In this document: positions 5,099 through 9,536 of the stretch, piece after piece
How positions within the stretch are numbered: the first letter of the stretch is position 1
Layout of the letters: the number at the start of each line of letters is the position of its first letter
Assembly: GCA_017451025.1 (NCBI GenBank)
Contig: JAFSSM010000056.1
Span: 1 to 64,000 of the forward strand
Length of the DNA stretch: 64,000 nucleotides
Direction of reading: 5' to 3'
From: Synergistaceae bacterium
GTDB taxonomy: Bacteria > Synergistota > Synergistia > Synergistales > Aminobacteriaceae
Program-made: the position numbers and the translations under genes
The notes under the pieces: generated by a model
Told to the model about the DNA's origin: nothing
The model's database searches: none
What the model saw: only the letters and a program-made list of their open reading frames with translations

Positions 5099-6676
5099 CT
5101 AGAAGGTTACACTCGTCCTGAACCTTACGACGTTGTCCTTGCGGCTGTCGTCGCCGTTCTGGTCGTTCTCGGCGTGCATGAAGTTCAGGCCCATCGTCGT
5201 GTAGTCGTTGAGGTGATACTGAACACCTACGCCGTATTCCTTCGGCTTCGCGTCGCTGCCAGCACCCCTGCCGTTAGCTACGTTGTAGCCATAGTAGAAC
5301 AGGTAGGTTGACCACTGCTCGTTCCAATCCTGGCCGAGACCGACTCTCCAGTACTTCGTCTTTTCAGCCACATAGCCTGCAAGGTACTCTTCCTGAAGGA
5401 GTGCGCCGTAGAACAGGATTCCGTCGTTCATACCGGTGAAGCCCTGATCGAACTGGCCGTACTCGAGCCATACGCTGGTGTACTTGAGAGCTTCCTGCTT
5501 TACGTCGATGATTGCTGCCCAGTGGTTCGCGTCGTCGACCATGTTAGCACCGCCGCCGAAGTAACCGCCATCTCTCCAAGCAAGTCTGCCGTTGTTGTTG
5601 AAGACTTCCTCTGTATCGATCTTCTGGTGATAGAACACACCCTTCAGGCCGATGTTGTCATTGAAGTTGAAGCGGAGGCCTGCGTAGACTGTCCAGAGGT
5701 TCTTGAACGACTTATCACCCTCAACATGCTTTGACCCCTCACCCTGGCTGTACTCTTCTGCGTTATCGCCGAAGAATGCCTGTCCGCCGAGATCGAAGCC
5801 GATCTGCTCAGTGAACTGGAACGTACCGCGTGCCATGAGCATCCAGTCTTCCCAGCCGAACTTGTTGGGGTGCGCTCCAACTGCCTGCACTGTGCCCATT
5901 CCGAAGTTCTTTGTCAGGCCGAAACCTGTCCATGTCCAGTCTGTAAGGATCTGGTCGCCGTCCCACACACCAGTGCCAGGAAGGGAAATCTTGTAGTCGC
6001 CTTCCCATGCCCAGTTCTGGCGGCCAACGAGAAGCCTGCTGTCCATGAAGAACGGCATCTCAACATAGAACCTGTCAAGGTACGCGCTCTGAGTATGCGC
6101 GTTTGAACCAGCGGTATCGCCCTCATTCCTGAGTCTTGCGCGGAAGAAGTACTCATCGTTCTCGCCCCATGTGCGCTCGAAGAACAGACGTGCTTCGTCG
6201 AACTTTACGGACCCCTTGCCGTCAGTGGTGAAAGCGTCTCCGGCCTTGTTCCTGCTCTCGTTCATGACATCAAGCACGAGCGTGCCGTGAATGTGCCATC
6301 CGCCGAGCCTGTCCTCAAGAACTGCGACTCTCTCGTCAAGCTCATCTACCCTTACGCCGAGTGCCTCGAGCTCGTCCTTGAACTCAACAACGAGTCTCTT
6401 GAGCATCTCTACGTCCTGCTTGCTGGCCTTCGTCATGTCGACTACTGCGAGTGCTCTGGCGAGTGCTGATGCAAGCTCGTAACGGGTCGTCTGCTGCTGG
6501 CCCTTGTAGGTGCCGTCAGGATAGCCTGACAGGATTCCGTGTGCTGCTAACTGACCGATTGCGTCATAAGCCCAGTGGTTCATCGGCACATCCATGAACG
6601 GGTTGGTCGCTGAAAACGCGGGTGCCGCAAGTGCTGCTACTGCTACAATAGCTGCGATTACTGCATATTTCTTCAT
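5099..6676 (-). CDS. SLH-domain outer-membrane porin 1 (expressed copy)
   Basis: A 525-residue outer-membrane protein. A signal peptide (about 1-22, ending AFSA) is followed by an SLH domain (about 24-85, with NHWAYDAIGQLAAHGILSGYPDG) that would grip the cell wall or periplasmic polymer, a coiled coil (about 90-135) and a beta-barrel whose last residue is Phe after alternating hydrophobics (RFRTSVTF), a typical porin end signal. Such SLH porins are abundant surface proteins in Synergistota and some other diderms. The start has a good AAGGGGG Shine-Dalgarno, and a 17-bp-spaced promoter lies about 290 bp upstream. The gene is divergent from porin 2, with the recombinase between them. From FSATNPF onward it matches porin 2 at 116 of 117 residues; the barrels have diverged. 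Confidence 0.88.
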   Translation of the reverse strand: MKKYAVIAAIVAVAALAAPAFSATNPFMDVPMNHWAYDAIGQLAAHGILSGYPDGTYKGQQQTTRYELASALARALAVVDMTKASKQDVEMLKRLVVEFKDELEALGVRVDELDERVAVLEDRLGGWHIHGTLVLDVMNESRNKAGDAFTTDGKGSVKFDEARLFFERTWGENDEYFFRARLRNEGDTAGSNAHTQSAYLDRFYVEMPFFMDSRLLVGRQNWAWEGDYKISLPGTGVWDGDQILTDWTWTGFGLTKNFGMGTVQAVGAHPNKFGWEDWMLMARGTFQFTEQIGFDLGGQAFFGDNAEEYSQGEGSKHVEGDKSFKNLWTVYAGLRFNFNDNIGLKGVFYHQKIDTEEVFNNNGRLAWRDGGYFGGGANMVDDANHWAAIIDVKQEALKYTSVWLEYGQFDQGFTGMNDGILFYGALLQEEYLAGYVAEKTKYWRVGLGQDWNEQWSTYLFYYGYNVANGRGAGSDAKPKEYGVGVQYHLNDYTTMGLNFMHAENDQNGDDSRKDNVVRFRTSVTF

Positions 6677-7019
6677 TATGAATAAACCCCCTTATGAAAT
6701 TGTCAAACAACTATCGTCTTCACGCACTCAGTCTTAATACTGCCCTGAGTCTGATGGGGGTGCGGAAAGTTACCTTGTTTCCTTTCTGTCCCTCTGACAG
6801 TTCGAGAAGCTGTATTCCCGACCTCCTGCGCCCTCTGCATGAACTCTTTCCTTAATGCCTGAACGGGGATCGTTGCATCTCCTTTCTGCGGCTTCTGGCT
6901 TTTTGAAGTTAATGCGTCGGTTTGACGATCTTTCGCTACGTATTTCCCGTAGCACGGCGCATATATTACTACACACTTTTGAAAAATGCAAGCGAATCTG
7001 TAATTTCGCGTATAAAGTT
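6677..7019 (-). promoter_or_regulatory. Long leader of porin 1
   Basis: This 343-bp gap between the recombinase stop and porin 1 holds the porin promoter (6963-6991) and a 5' untranslated leader of about 280 nt. The leader contains an ACTCAG/CTGAGT inverted repeat (6726-6731 with 6745-6750, 13-nt loop) and ends with AAGGGGG before the ATG. A 111-codon minus-strand ORF across it has no convincing ribosome site and no recognisable domain, so I treat the stretch as leader. A long structured leader is consistent with post-transcriptional control, but no known riboswitch class was recognised. Confidence 0.5.
6963..6991 (-). promoter_or_regulatory. Sigma-70-type promoter of porin 1, inside the candidate invertible segment
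   Basis: On the minus strand, -35 TTGCAT (6986-6991) and -10 TAATAT (6963-6968) are separated by exactly 17 bp. Transcription would start near 6956 and run through the ~280-nt leader into porin 1. The promoter begins just after the recombinase stop codon. Confidence 0.6.
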
Positions 7020-7904
7020 TCAGAAAATGGCCTCGCATATAGCATCCTCGCAGGGACTCTTCAGGCGGTCAACGTGGTGCGCATAAACCATCGTTGTAGT
7101 TATGGACTTGTGTCGTGCGAAGGCTTGAACGTCAGAGAGTGATATTCCGGCCATAAGAGACAGAGTTATTGCCGAGTGCCTGAGAGAATGCGCAGTGAGG
7201 CGGCTGGAAGTGAAGCCGTTTTCCCGCATTGCCGACTTGCAGATGAACGAGATGCTTCGAGTTGAGAGTCTGGAGTTCATGTTCCGAAAACTCATTGACA
7301 CAAAAAGAGGAGAGTCTTTGCTGGTGTGGCCTCTATCCGCCAAATATTCACGAACTGCTCTCAAAACTGGAGCAGGCAATTTCACGAACTCAGCCTTAGA
7401 GTTTCTGCCCTTGCCCTGAACAAACAGGCATGTATGGTTGCCGATTCTACGCAAGTCCTCAATATTTGCTCTGACCACTTCGATTGTCCGCAAGCCGCCT
7501 ACTGACATTAGGGCAAGGATGGCAAAATTTCTGCGGCCTATTGGAGTTTTGCGGTCTATGCTGTTAAGGATTGTACGCAGCTGTTCAACGCCTAAGCAGT
7601 CTCTTTTGTGGCCGGGTTCTTGTTTGGGAGTTTTGATGCCGAAAGCAATATTCGGGTAAAGTCCGGAGTGTTCAGTCCAAGCGAAGAAGCGTCTGCAAGC
7701 GGCCAAGTAGAGAGCTATGGTACTGGGCTTGCGTTTGAGGTGTTCGAGGTGTTTGCGGAAGCTGAGGATGTCGTTGCGTGAGGGCTGGGAGATTGAGCGT
7801 TCGGAGAAGTAGCGGAAGAGTTGGCGTAATGCGCGTCTGTAAGTAGCTTCAGTGTTTTCTGAGACATCGATAAACTGGAAAAATGCGTCTATTACGTTAT
7901 TCAT
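7020..7904 (-). CDS. Tyrosine recombinase (XerC/D-like) between the two porin genes
   Basis: A 294-residue site-specific recombinase with an N-terminal SAM-like core-binding domain (about 1-90) and a C-terminal catalytic domain. The full catalytic set is visible: Arg139 (GGLRT), Lys165 (GKGR), His239 and Arg242 (HSLRHS), His265 (ARHKS) and the nucleophile Tyr274 (VYAHH). The ATG at 7904 has an excellent AAGGAGG site (7912-7918). The gene is isolated between two divergent, paralogous surface-protein genes, the arrangement expected of a dedicated DNA invertase (as in Mycoplasma Xer1/vpma or Bacteroides Mpi systems). A chromosome-dimer XerC/D role is less likely given the context. No other phage or integron genes are nearby. 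Confidence 0.9.
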   Translation of the reverse strand: MNNVIDAFFQFIDVSENTEATYRRALRQLFRYFSERSISQPSRNDILSFRKHLEHLKRKPSTIALYLAACRRFFAWTEHSGLYPNIAFGIKTPKQEPGHKRDCLGVEQLRTILNSIDRKTPIGRRNFAILALMSVGGLRTIEVVRANIEDLRRIGNHTCLFVQGKGRNSKAEFVKLPAPVLRAVREYLADRGHTSKDSPLFVSMSFRNMNSRLSTRSISFICKSAMRENGFTSSRLTAHSLRHSAITLSLMAGISLSDVQAFARHKSITTTMVYAHHVDRLKSPCEDAICEAIF

Positions 7905-7907
7905 GGA

Positions 7908-9536
7908 TTGTCCTCCTTAATAGGCAGTAATTGTACGGTAAAGAAATTTACAGCGATACTTTTGGGTGCAGCACTCGCAGTGAGCTTTGTTGTTCCCGCG
8001 TTTTCGGCAACGAATCCGTTTATGGACGTTCCCATGAATCATTGGGCGTATGATGCGATAGGACAGCTCGCGGCTCACGGAATCCTCTCGGGTTACCCGG
8101 ACGGCATGTATAAAGGCCAGCAGCAAACTACGCGCTATGAGTTAGCTTCGGCTCTGGCTAGGGCGTTGGCGGTAGTGGACATGACCAAAGCGAGCAAGCA
8201 GGATGTGGAAATGCTGAAGCGTCTTGTGGTGGAGTTCAAGGACGAACTGGAAGCTCTGGGAGTCAGGGTTGATGAACTGGACGAGCGTGTTGCAGTTCTG
8301 GAGGATCGTCTTGGTGGATGGCATATTCATGGAACGTTAGTGCTTGACGTCGTAAACAGGAGCGCAAACGATGCCGGTGACTCTTTCGGACCAGATGGAG
8401 ACGGCTCAATCGGATTTGATGAGGCTAGGCTGTTCTTTGAGCGTACATTCGGAGAAAACGACGAGTACTTCTTCAGAGCCAGACTGCGCAACGAAGAAGA
8501 AAAGAAGACGAATGCTGATGATGACGTGGTGAACGGAGCTTACTTCGACAGATTTTATGTAGAAATGCCCTTCTTCTTCGACTCAAGGCTTATGGTCGGC
8601 CGCAACAATTGGGCTTGGGAAGGTGATTACAAGATCAGTCTGCCAGAAACCGGAGGATGGACAGGCGGACAGCTGCTCACCGATTGGACTTGGACAGGAT
8701 TCGGACTCACCAAGAATTTTGGGCTGGGGACAGTTCAGGCAGCATTTGCACATCCCAACAAGAACTTCGGCATGGCTGGAGACGGCGAGACTCTGAGCGA
8801 CTGGATGGTTATGGCGAGAGGCAGCTTCCAGTTCACGGAACAGATTGGCTTCGATATTGGAGGCCAGGCGTTCGTGGGCGACAATGCGGAAGAAAGATAC
8901 AAAGACGATGCCGGAGTGTGGCAGGGAATGTCCTTCAATAATTTGTGGACAGCATTTGCGGGAGTGCGTTTCAACTTTAACGACAATATTGCGTTCAAGG
9001 GAACGTTCTATCACCAGCAGATGGACAGCGAATTTATCGGTAATTCCAACGGGCGCAGGACATGGCTCGATCGCGGTTATGGTCTCAGGAACGCTGCAGG
9101 CAACTATATTGATGTTGATGATGCCAATCACTGGGCCGCGATTATCGATGTCAAACAGGCTGCCCTCAAGTACACGAGTGTGTGGCTTGAATACGGACAG
9201 TATGACCAGGGCTTCAGAGTCTTAAACAGCGACGGAATATTCTACAGCGATCTTCTGAAGAGGTCTCAGGCAGCAGAGGATATCAAGTACTGGAGAGTTG
9301 GACTTGGCCAAGAGTGGAATGATAAGTGGGCTACATATTTGTTCTACTACGGCTACAACAGGGATATTCCAGGCGGGGATAACATCAAGCCTGCGGAGTA
9401 TGGAGTTGGCGTTCAGTATAAGCTCAATGATGCTACAACGATGGGCTTGAACTATATGCATGCTGACAACGATCAGGACGGCAATAACAGCCGTGAGGAT
9501 AACGTTGTGAGGTTCAGAACCAGCGTAACATTCTAA
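7908..9536 (+). CDS. SLH-domain outer-membrane porin 2 (apparently lacking its own start signals)
   Basis: A paralogue of porin 1: signal-peptide-like segment (KKFTAILLGAALAV...AFSA), SLH domain, coiled coil, then a diverged beta-barrel ending RFRTSVTF. Homology to the 'MKK' signal peptide begins at the AAG codon at 7941. The codon before it is GTA, not ATG, and no in-frame ATG or GTG lies upstream. The coordinates given use the only upstream candidate, TTG at 7908, which has no Shine-Dalgarno and would put 10 extra residues before the signal peptide. The nearby tcctcctta is the recombinase's own ribosome site on the opposite strand. The gene is otherwise intact over 530 codons and looks like a silent but maintained copy that needs inversion to be translated. 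A strong terminator follows. Confidence 0.85.
   Translation: MSSLIGSNCTVKKFTAILLGAALAVSFVVPAFSATNPFMDVPMNHWAYDAIGQLAAHGILSGYPDGMYKGQQQTTRYELASALARALAVVDMTKASKQDVEMLKRLVVEFKDELEALGVRVDELDERVAVLEDRLGGWHIHGTLVLDVVNRSANDAGDSFGPDGDGSIGFDEARLFFERTFGENDEYFFRARLRNEEEKKTNADDDVVNGAYFDRFYVEMPFFFDSRLMVGRNNWAWEGDYKISLPETGGWTGGQLLTDWTWTGFGLTKNFGLGTVQAAFAHPNKNFGMAGDGETLSDWMVMARGSFQFTEQIGFDIGGQAFVGDNAEERYKDDAGVWQGMSFNNLWTAFAGVRFNFNDNIAFKGTFYHQQMDSEFIGNSNGRRTWLDRGYGLRNAAGNYIDVDDANHWAAIIDVKQAALKYTSVWLEYGQYDQGFRVLNSDGIFYSDLLKRSQAAEDIKYWRVGLGQEWNDKWATYLFYYGYNRDIPGGDNIKPAEYGVGVQYKLNDATTMGLNYMHADNDQDGNNSREDNVVRFRTSVTF

Follow-up and report, generated by a model that had tools for sequence, protein, structure and literature searches.

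The window analysed here, 64,000 nucleotides from a rumen Synergistaceae bacterium (contig C42 in a draft assembly of 2.3 Mb), contains a complete tyrosine recombinase gene between two divergent porin genes, and an SLH domain was detected in both porins. The features of the locus are collected in Table 1. This gene arrangement had been claimed by a first-pass annotation of the DNA and was confirmed at sequence level, as were its other readings of the letters. Porin 1 has a leader, a Shine-Dalgarno sequence and an ATG (AAGGGGG...ATG) at the coordinates it gave, and porin 2 is start-less, with a GTA codon at the Met position and no in-frame ATG or GTG upstream. The inverted pair atttctt (6667-6673) and aagaaat (7941-7947) consists of exact reverse complements 1267 bases apart. 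When 6674-7940 is inverted in silico, porin 2 reads ...AAGGGGGTTTATTCATA ATG AAG AAA TTT ACA with an in-frame MKK start, and becomes an ORF of 532 aa. The ends of the segment are ambiguous inside the 7-bp repeat. By the logic of the sequence, its orientation would determine which porin can be expressed, as silent copies are start-less and inversion restores the start.

Table 1. Features of the porin-recombinase locus, in positions of the window
Feature	Position	Strand	Remarks
Porin 1, OmpM homologue, PSP1 side	5099..6676	-	ON here; 525 aa; SLH, stalk and beta-barrel; ATG with Shine-Dalgarno sequence
Putative crossover site 1	6657..6673	-	Porin 1 codons 2-7, AAGAAATATGCAGTAAT; core AAGAAAT at 6667-6673
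Proposed invertible segment	6674..7940	.	1267 bp; start codon, Shine-Dalgarno sequence, leader and recombinase gene
ATG given by the segment to the porin it faces	6674..6676	-	From sequence and in-silico inversion
Conserved porin leader	6677..6962	-	About 280 nt; candidate structured RNA
AAGGGGG, segment-borne Shine-Dalgarno sequence	6687..6693	-	From sequence
Promoter-like TTGCAT-17-TAATAT	6963..6991	-	Just 3' of the recombinase stop; same in three species
Tyrosine recombinase	7020..7904	-	294 aa; R139, K165, H239, R242, H265 and Y274 present
AAGGAGG, recombinase Shine-Dalgarno sequence	7912..7918	-	
Porin 2, OmpM homologue, ACT side	7941..9536	+	Start-less (OFF) here; homology from codon 2 (Lys, 7941)
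Putative crossover site 2	7941..7957	+	Porin 2 codons 2-7, AAGAAATTTACAGCGAT; core AAGAAAT at 7941-7947

The recombinase has the complete catalytic set R-K-H-R-H-Y and matches Pfam PF00589 (1.2e-21). Its gene is co-oriented with the promoter-like site, leader, Shine-Dalgarno sequence and ATG inside the segment, and therefore always lies directly upstream of the leader of the ON porin. The promoter-like site is weak relative to the consensus and scored under the threshold of the promoter scan. The ATG of the recombinase is only 36 bp from the crossover, so that whatever promoter elements lie past this point would be part of the silent porin. Recombinase bound in the first codons of the silent porin could in this way repress its own gene.

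By sequence, both porins are homologues of OmpM, which serves as outer-membrane tether and channel. Porin 1 matches Veillonella OmpM1 (8bys_A, E=1.2e-26), V. parvula OmpM is also hit as 8bym_A (E=9.8e-25), and in a fold comparison the barrel of porin 1 resembles porins including OmpM1, the model being of moderate confidence (mean pLDDT 69.5) with a poorly modelled SLH part. The OmpM architecture of signal peptide, SLH domain, coiled-coil stalk and beta-barrel is present, and Veillonella parvula OmpM has the same SLH-stalk-barrel build as the window porins. In V. parvula OmpM tethers the outer membrane to the wall peptidoglycan, and OmpM proteins provide the general porins in diderm Firmicutes and are likely to do so in other diderm Terrabacteria (PMC10628300). 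A cell cannot easily switch off a protein that is both wall tether and general porin. Porins 1 and 2 are identical at 103 of 104 positions of the SLH and stalk anchor, while the identity falls to 80% in the barrel strands and 47% in the long loops, which were called extracellular from the topology.

The SLH search of the whole assembly matched these two porins only. The first-pass annotation had proposed a search of the genome for more start-less SLH porin cassettes; none were found, and the assembly yielded no further SLH genes and no near-perfect sites at porins. With two copies and no extra start-less cassettes, the switch would be a two-state one, unlike the vsa and vpma type, where a genome holds several silent cassettes. 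A protein search additionally found a truncated porin at the end of contig C2 (L043, 1-5038), the contig breaking within the gene. The first 237 bp of this porin are 98% identical to porin 1, and it adjoins TmK, delta' and PSP1 genes of its own with 73-80% protein identity to the window copies. This second gene set probably means that C2 or C42 comes from another, co-binned species, and the C2 porin was dropped as a third cassette for this reason.

Our comparison covers 43 genomes of the genus, all of them draft assemblies. A close recombinase (71-100% identity) was found in three, in each case between two divergent porins. The cassette is thus known from one genome per species (n=3), namely the window species and two congeners, G022 and G005, the latter a goat-rumen MAG ('Synergistaceae bacterium RGIG3476') close to the window genome. 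The reverse orientation was sought among these related genomes, as the first-pass annotation had proposed, and G022 has it, with the expected breakpoints and the same flanking genes as the window (TmK, delta' and PSP1 on one side; ACT, MrpE and MrpB on the other). Leader and recombinase are reversed there, the PSP1-side porin is start-less, and the ACT-side porin, the positional counterpart of porin 2, carries leader and ATG and is ON. Comparison of the two assembled loci indicates that the segment occurs in nature in either orientation, in different species and with precise breakpoints, the flipped state being that of one of the three cassette species. G005 has the window orientation relative to ACT and a rearranged opposite flank, in which an RtcB-like gene takes the place of PSP1 through rearrangement or misassembly (L034, 12355-14893). 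Seven members of the genus (G004, G028, G010, G031, G024, G030 and G033) have a single porin between PSP1 and ACT, pointing at PSP1. This is likely the ancestral state, and window porin 1 fits it.

It can be asked whether the missing ATG of porin 2 matters at all. Both porins might be expressed together, porin 2 being translated from an internal start or from TTG 7908, the sole in-frame start codon that follows the upstream TGA and precedes the region of homology. The frame is open, and a TTG start could in principle serve the window copy. However, TTG 7908 is antisense to the Shine-Dalgarno and start region of the recombinase and has no Shine-Dalgarno sequence of its own. The silent copies of the other two species, whose upstream frames read TAA...AAA AAG AAA (G005) and TGA AAA AAG AAA (G022), have an in-frame stop before codon 2 and no start codon between. 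Each cassette genome moreover has a single leader, which always sits on the non-silent gene. We therefore regard joint expression with an incidental loss of the ATG as very unlikely.

The site string common to both porins is AAGAAAT in the window, AAGAAATTAGCAGTA in G005 (15 bp) and AAGAAATTAGCAGTAAT in G022 (17 bp). The window repeat is exact over 7 bp and matches at 13 of 17 positions of the longer site. The 7-mer alone is weak evidence, since both genes begin with Met-Lys-Lys and AAGAAAT also opens 5 of 13 further porins from the genus, and it was dropped as a proof of inversion. A degenerate 17-mer with three mismatches occurs at chance frequency within the window. The arrangement as a whole is not due to chance, because two further species show it too, their paired sites agreeing over 15 and 17 bp. 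A clean 11-6-11 recombinase site was sought as well and did not emerge: the inner arms differ across the six sites and could not be defined, and the plasmid relatives gave no shared motif.

The exchange is limited to the first codons. Had the whole cassette or the N-termini of the porins turned round, the signal peptides would have moved together with the leader, and this is not what we see. On the PSP1 side, the window gene (ON) and its G022 counterpart (OFF) are 89% identical in the signal peptide and 88% in SLH and stalk, and on the ACT side (window OFF, G022 ON) the values are 65% and 85%. The cross pairs between window and G022 reach 53-59% in the signal peptide and 75-76% in SLH and stalk. 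When a tree is built from the DNA of the signal peptide and the SLH/stalk codons, the three ACT-side genes form one clade (100/100), and the three leader-bearing genes do so in 0% of bootstraps. The N-terminal DNA thus follows position and the leader moves, which places the breakpoints at codons 2-4. The same tree and the signal peptides rule out inversion of the whole cassette and homologous exchange or crossover inside the porins.

The barrels, on the other hand, do not track locus position as the N-termini do (L034, 7773-12355; L035, 7680-12224; window, 5099-9536), which suggests occasional barrel exchange or gene conversion between the two copies. A full-length porin tree was for this reason dropped for orthology, and only the N-termini were used. 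Such exchange within lineages would also suit a different history, in which inversion took place once or on a few occasions within the genus, whether through the recombinase or through a rare illegitimate event at the short repeat. Each species would now be fixed for its orientation, and the silent porin would serve as a reservoir for gene conversion instead of being switched on. The single orientation in each assembly agrees with this as well. Barrel conversion alone would not, however, preserve what we find in the silent genes, which keep full-length frames, signal peptides and constrained SLH codons. Between the ON and the OFF copy of the window there are 70 synonymous against 7.5 nonsynonymous changes over 108 SLH/stalk codons, and in the G022 pair the figures are 71 and 9.2. 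This synonymous excess means that the start-less genes are not decaying. The recombinase, too, is intact in the three species (dN/dS 0.13-0.19). Judged from these codon comparisons, the start-less porins and the recombinase are under purifying selection, and a switch that is now only a fossil seems unlikely.

We consider it probable that the locus is a self-contained, site-specific inversion switch of the either/or kind between two OmpM porins, with the barrel type changing. The opposite orientation in G022, the start-less copies and the purifying selection support the first-pass reading of a porin switch that carries its own recombinase. In the proposed mechanism the embedded recombinase would exchange strands at codons 2-4 (to about 7) of the two divergent OmpM genes and so invert the 1267-bp segment with its promoter-like site, leader, Shine-Dalgarno sequence and ATG. 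The OmpM gene facing the leader would be translated and the other, start-less, would be silent. One OmpM would always be ON, with a constant SLH/stalk anchor and a variable barrel with its extracellular loops. For a protein as hard to switch off as OmpM, inverting the DNA so that the loops vary while the anchor stays constant would be a neat solution. We infer that the embedded recombinase is the agent, that switching is reversible and ongoing within populations, and that the benefit may lie in variation of the exposed loops under selection by phages, protozoa, hosts or solutes.

The recombinase itself seems to have come from plasmids. The switch recombinases of the three species group together as one clade (100/100), nested in a group of small-plasmid recombinases. 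Those more distant copies from relatives (45-57% identity) that were inspected sit for the most part on short contigs, together with replication genes. At seven such loci (L036, L037, L038, L039 and L045-L047) the recombinases are accompanied by DnaB-like or primase proteins and replication initiators, and these are probably small plasmids; the 11.3-kb contig of L036 repeats itself, as a circle of about 7 kb would if unrolled. The next relatives found outside the phylum, at about 50% identity, belong to small Streptococcus and Staphylococcus plasmids, and a search of IMG/VR found no relatives. A truncated chromosomal copy of the family in G023 (L041, 9787-10362), whose frame ends near residue 180, has a 5'-nucleotidase-like gene next to it and a TnpB-like gene not far off, but no porin in its neighbourhood.

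This nesting among small-plasmid recombinases raises the question whether the locus is just the scar of an integrated small plasmid that left its recombinase behind, the second porin and the differences in orientation being by-products without regulatory role. No other plasmid gene is left, though, and three species share the same layout, its boundaries falling precisely at codon 2 and all three genes being under selection, so that we hold this explanation to be very improbable. Plasmid integration serves better to explain where the switch came from than to replace it, and the case suggests a route from a plasmid recombinase to a switch for surface variation. It appears reasonably likely to us that the main outer-membrane tether and channel of a Synergistota lineage is a two-state switch, in which a small-plasmid recombinase captured at the porin gene passes leader and start codon, by inversion, from one OmpM gene to the other. 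Such a switch would ensure the constant presence of one tether and vary the exposed surface.

The logic of such an inversion is already known from vsa, Hin, sap and Omp1. Salmonella Hin is a serine recombinase whose gene lies inside the inverting segment and which serves two alternative surface proteins; there the promoter alone is moved, and a repressor mediates control of the second flagellin. The proposed OmpM switch resembles it in that the recombinase rides in the segment and two surface proteins would alternate, but the window enzyme is a tyrosine recombinase and so is no serine invertase. Campylobacter fetus sap and Dichelobacter nodosus omp1 use one expression signal for surface-protein genes with conserved N-termini. 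The OmpM switch would share these two traits with them, although their proteins are unrelated and their loci multi-gene.

Inversion at vsa of Mycoplasma pulmonis (HvsR) and at mba/UU172 of Ureaplasma places a silent surface-protein gene behind a promoter and a ribosome-binding site and supplies it with the 5' end of an ORF (PMC3047005). Here, too, expression signals and a start would be moved to a silent surface gene. The vsa and mba/UU172 cassettes are truncated 3' cassettes, and a recombinase within their inverting segment is not described, whereas the OmpM genes are complete save for the start codon, the choice would be a reciprocal either/or, the recombinase is in the segment and the target is an outer-membrane porin. 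At vpma of Mycoplasma agalactiae an Xer-like tyrosine recombinase (Xer1) is encoded at the locus, one promoter serves several surface genes, and the sites are found in the 5' UTR, within the stretch from -72 to the start codon (PMC2268961). The OmpM site, in contrast, lies within codons 2-4, so that the start codon itself would move.

For the OmpM paralogues of V. parvula, inversion switching is not described (PMC10628300). Inversion signatures have been reported in one of two Synergistetes species, with the target unnamed in the sections covered, and in Providencia a recombinase putatively encoded inside the segment has been reported close to a fimbrial locus (PMC5903667). As far as our limited literature search goes, an inversion switch of OmpM is unreported, and so is such a switch in detail for Synergistota. 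What would be new is the OmpM target, the phylum, the in-segment tyrosine recombinase of plasmid origin, and the start codon swapped reciprocally between two otherwise complete genes.

The porin leader is more widespread than the cassette and is recognisable in at least 29 of the 43 genus genomes. A known riboswitch was considered and dropped, as comparison of the leader with Rfam returned no matching family. The predicted fold has several stems, one of them formed by CTCAG...CTGAG, and includes the stretch GGAAACAAGGTAACTTTCC, which hardly varies (alignment A4); covariation is weak in an alignment of eight sequences. We suggest the porin leader as a candidate new leader RNA.
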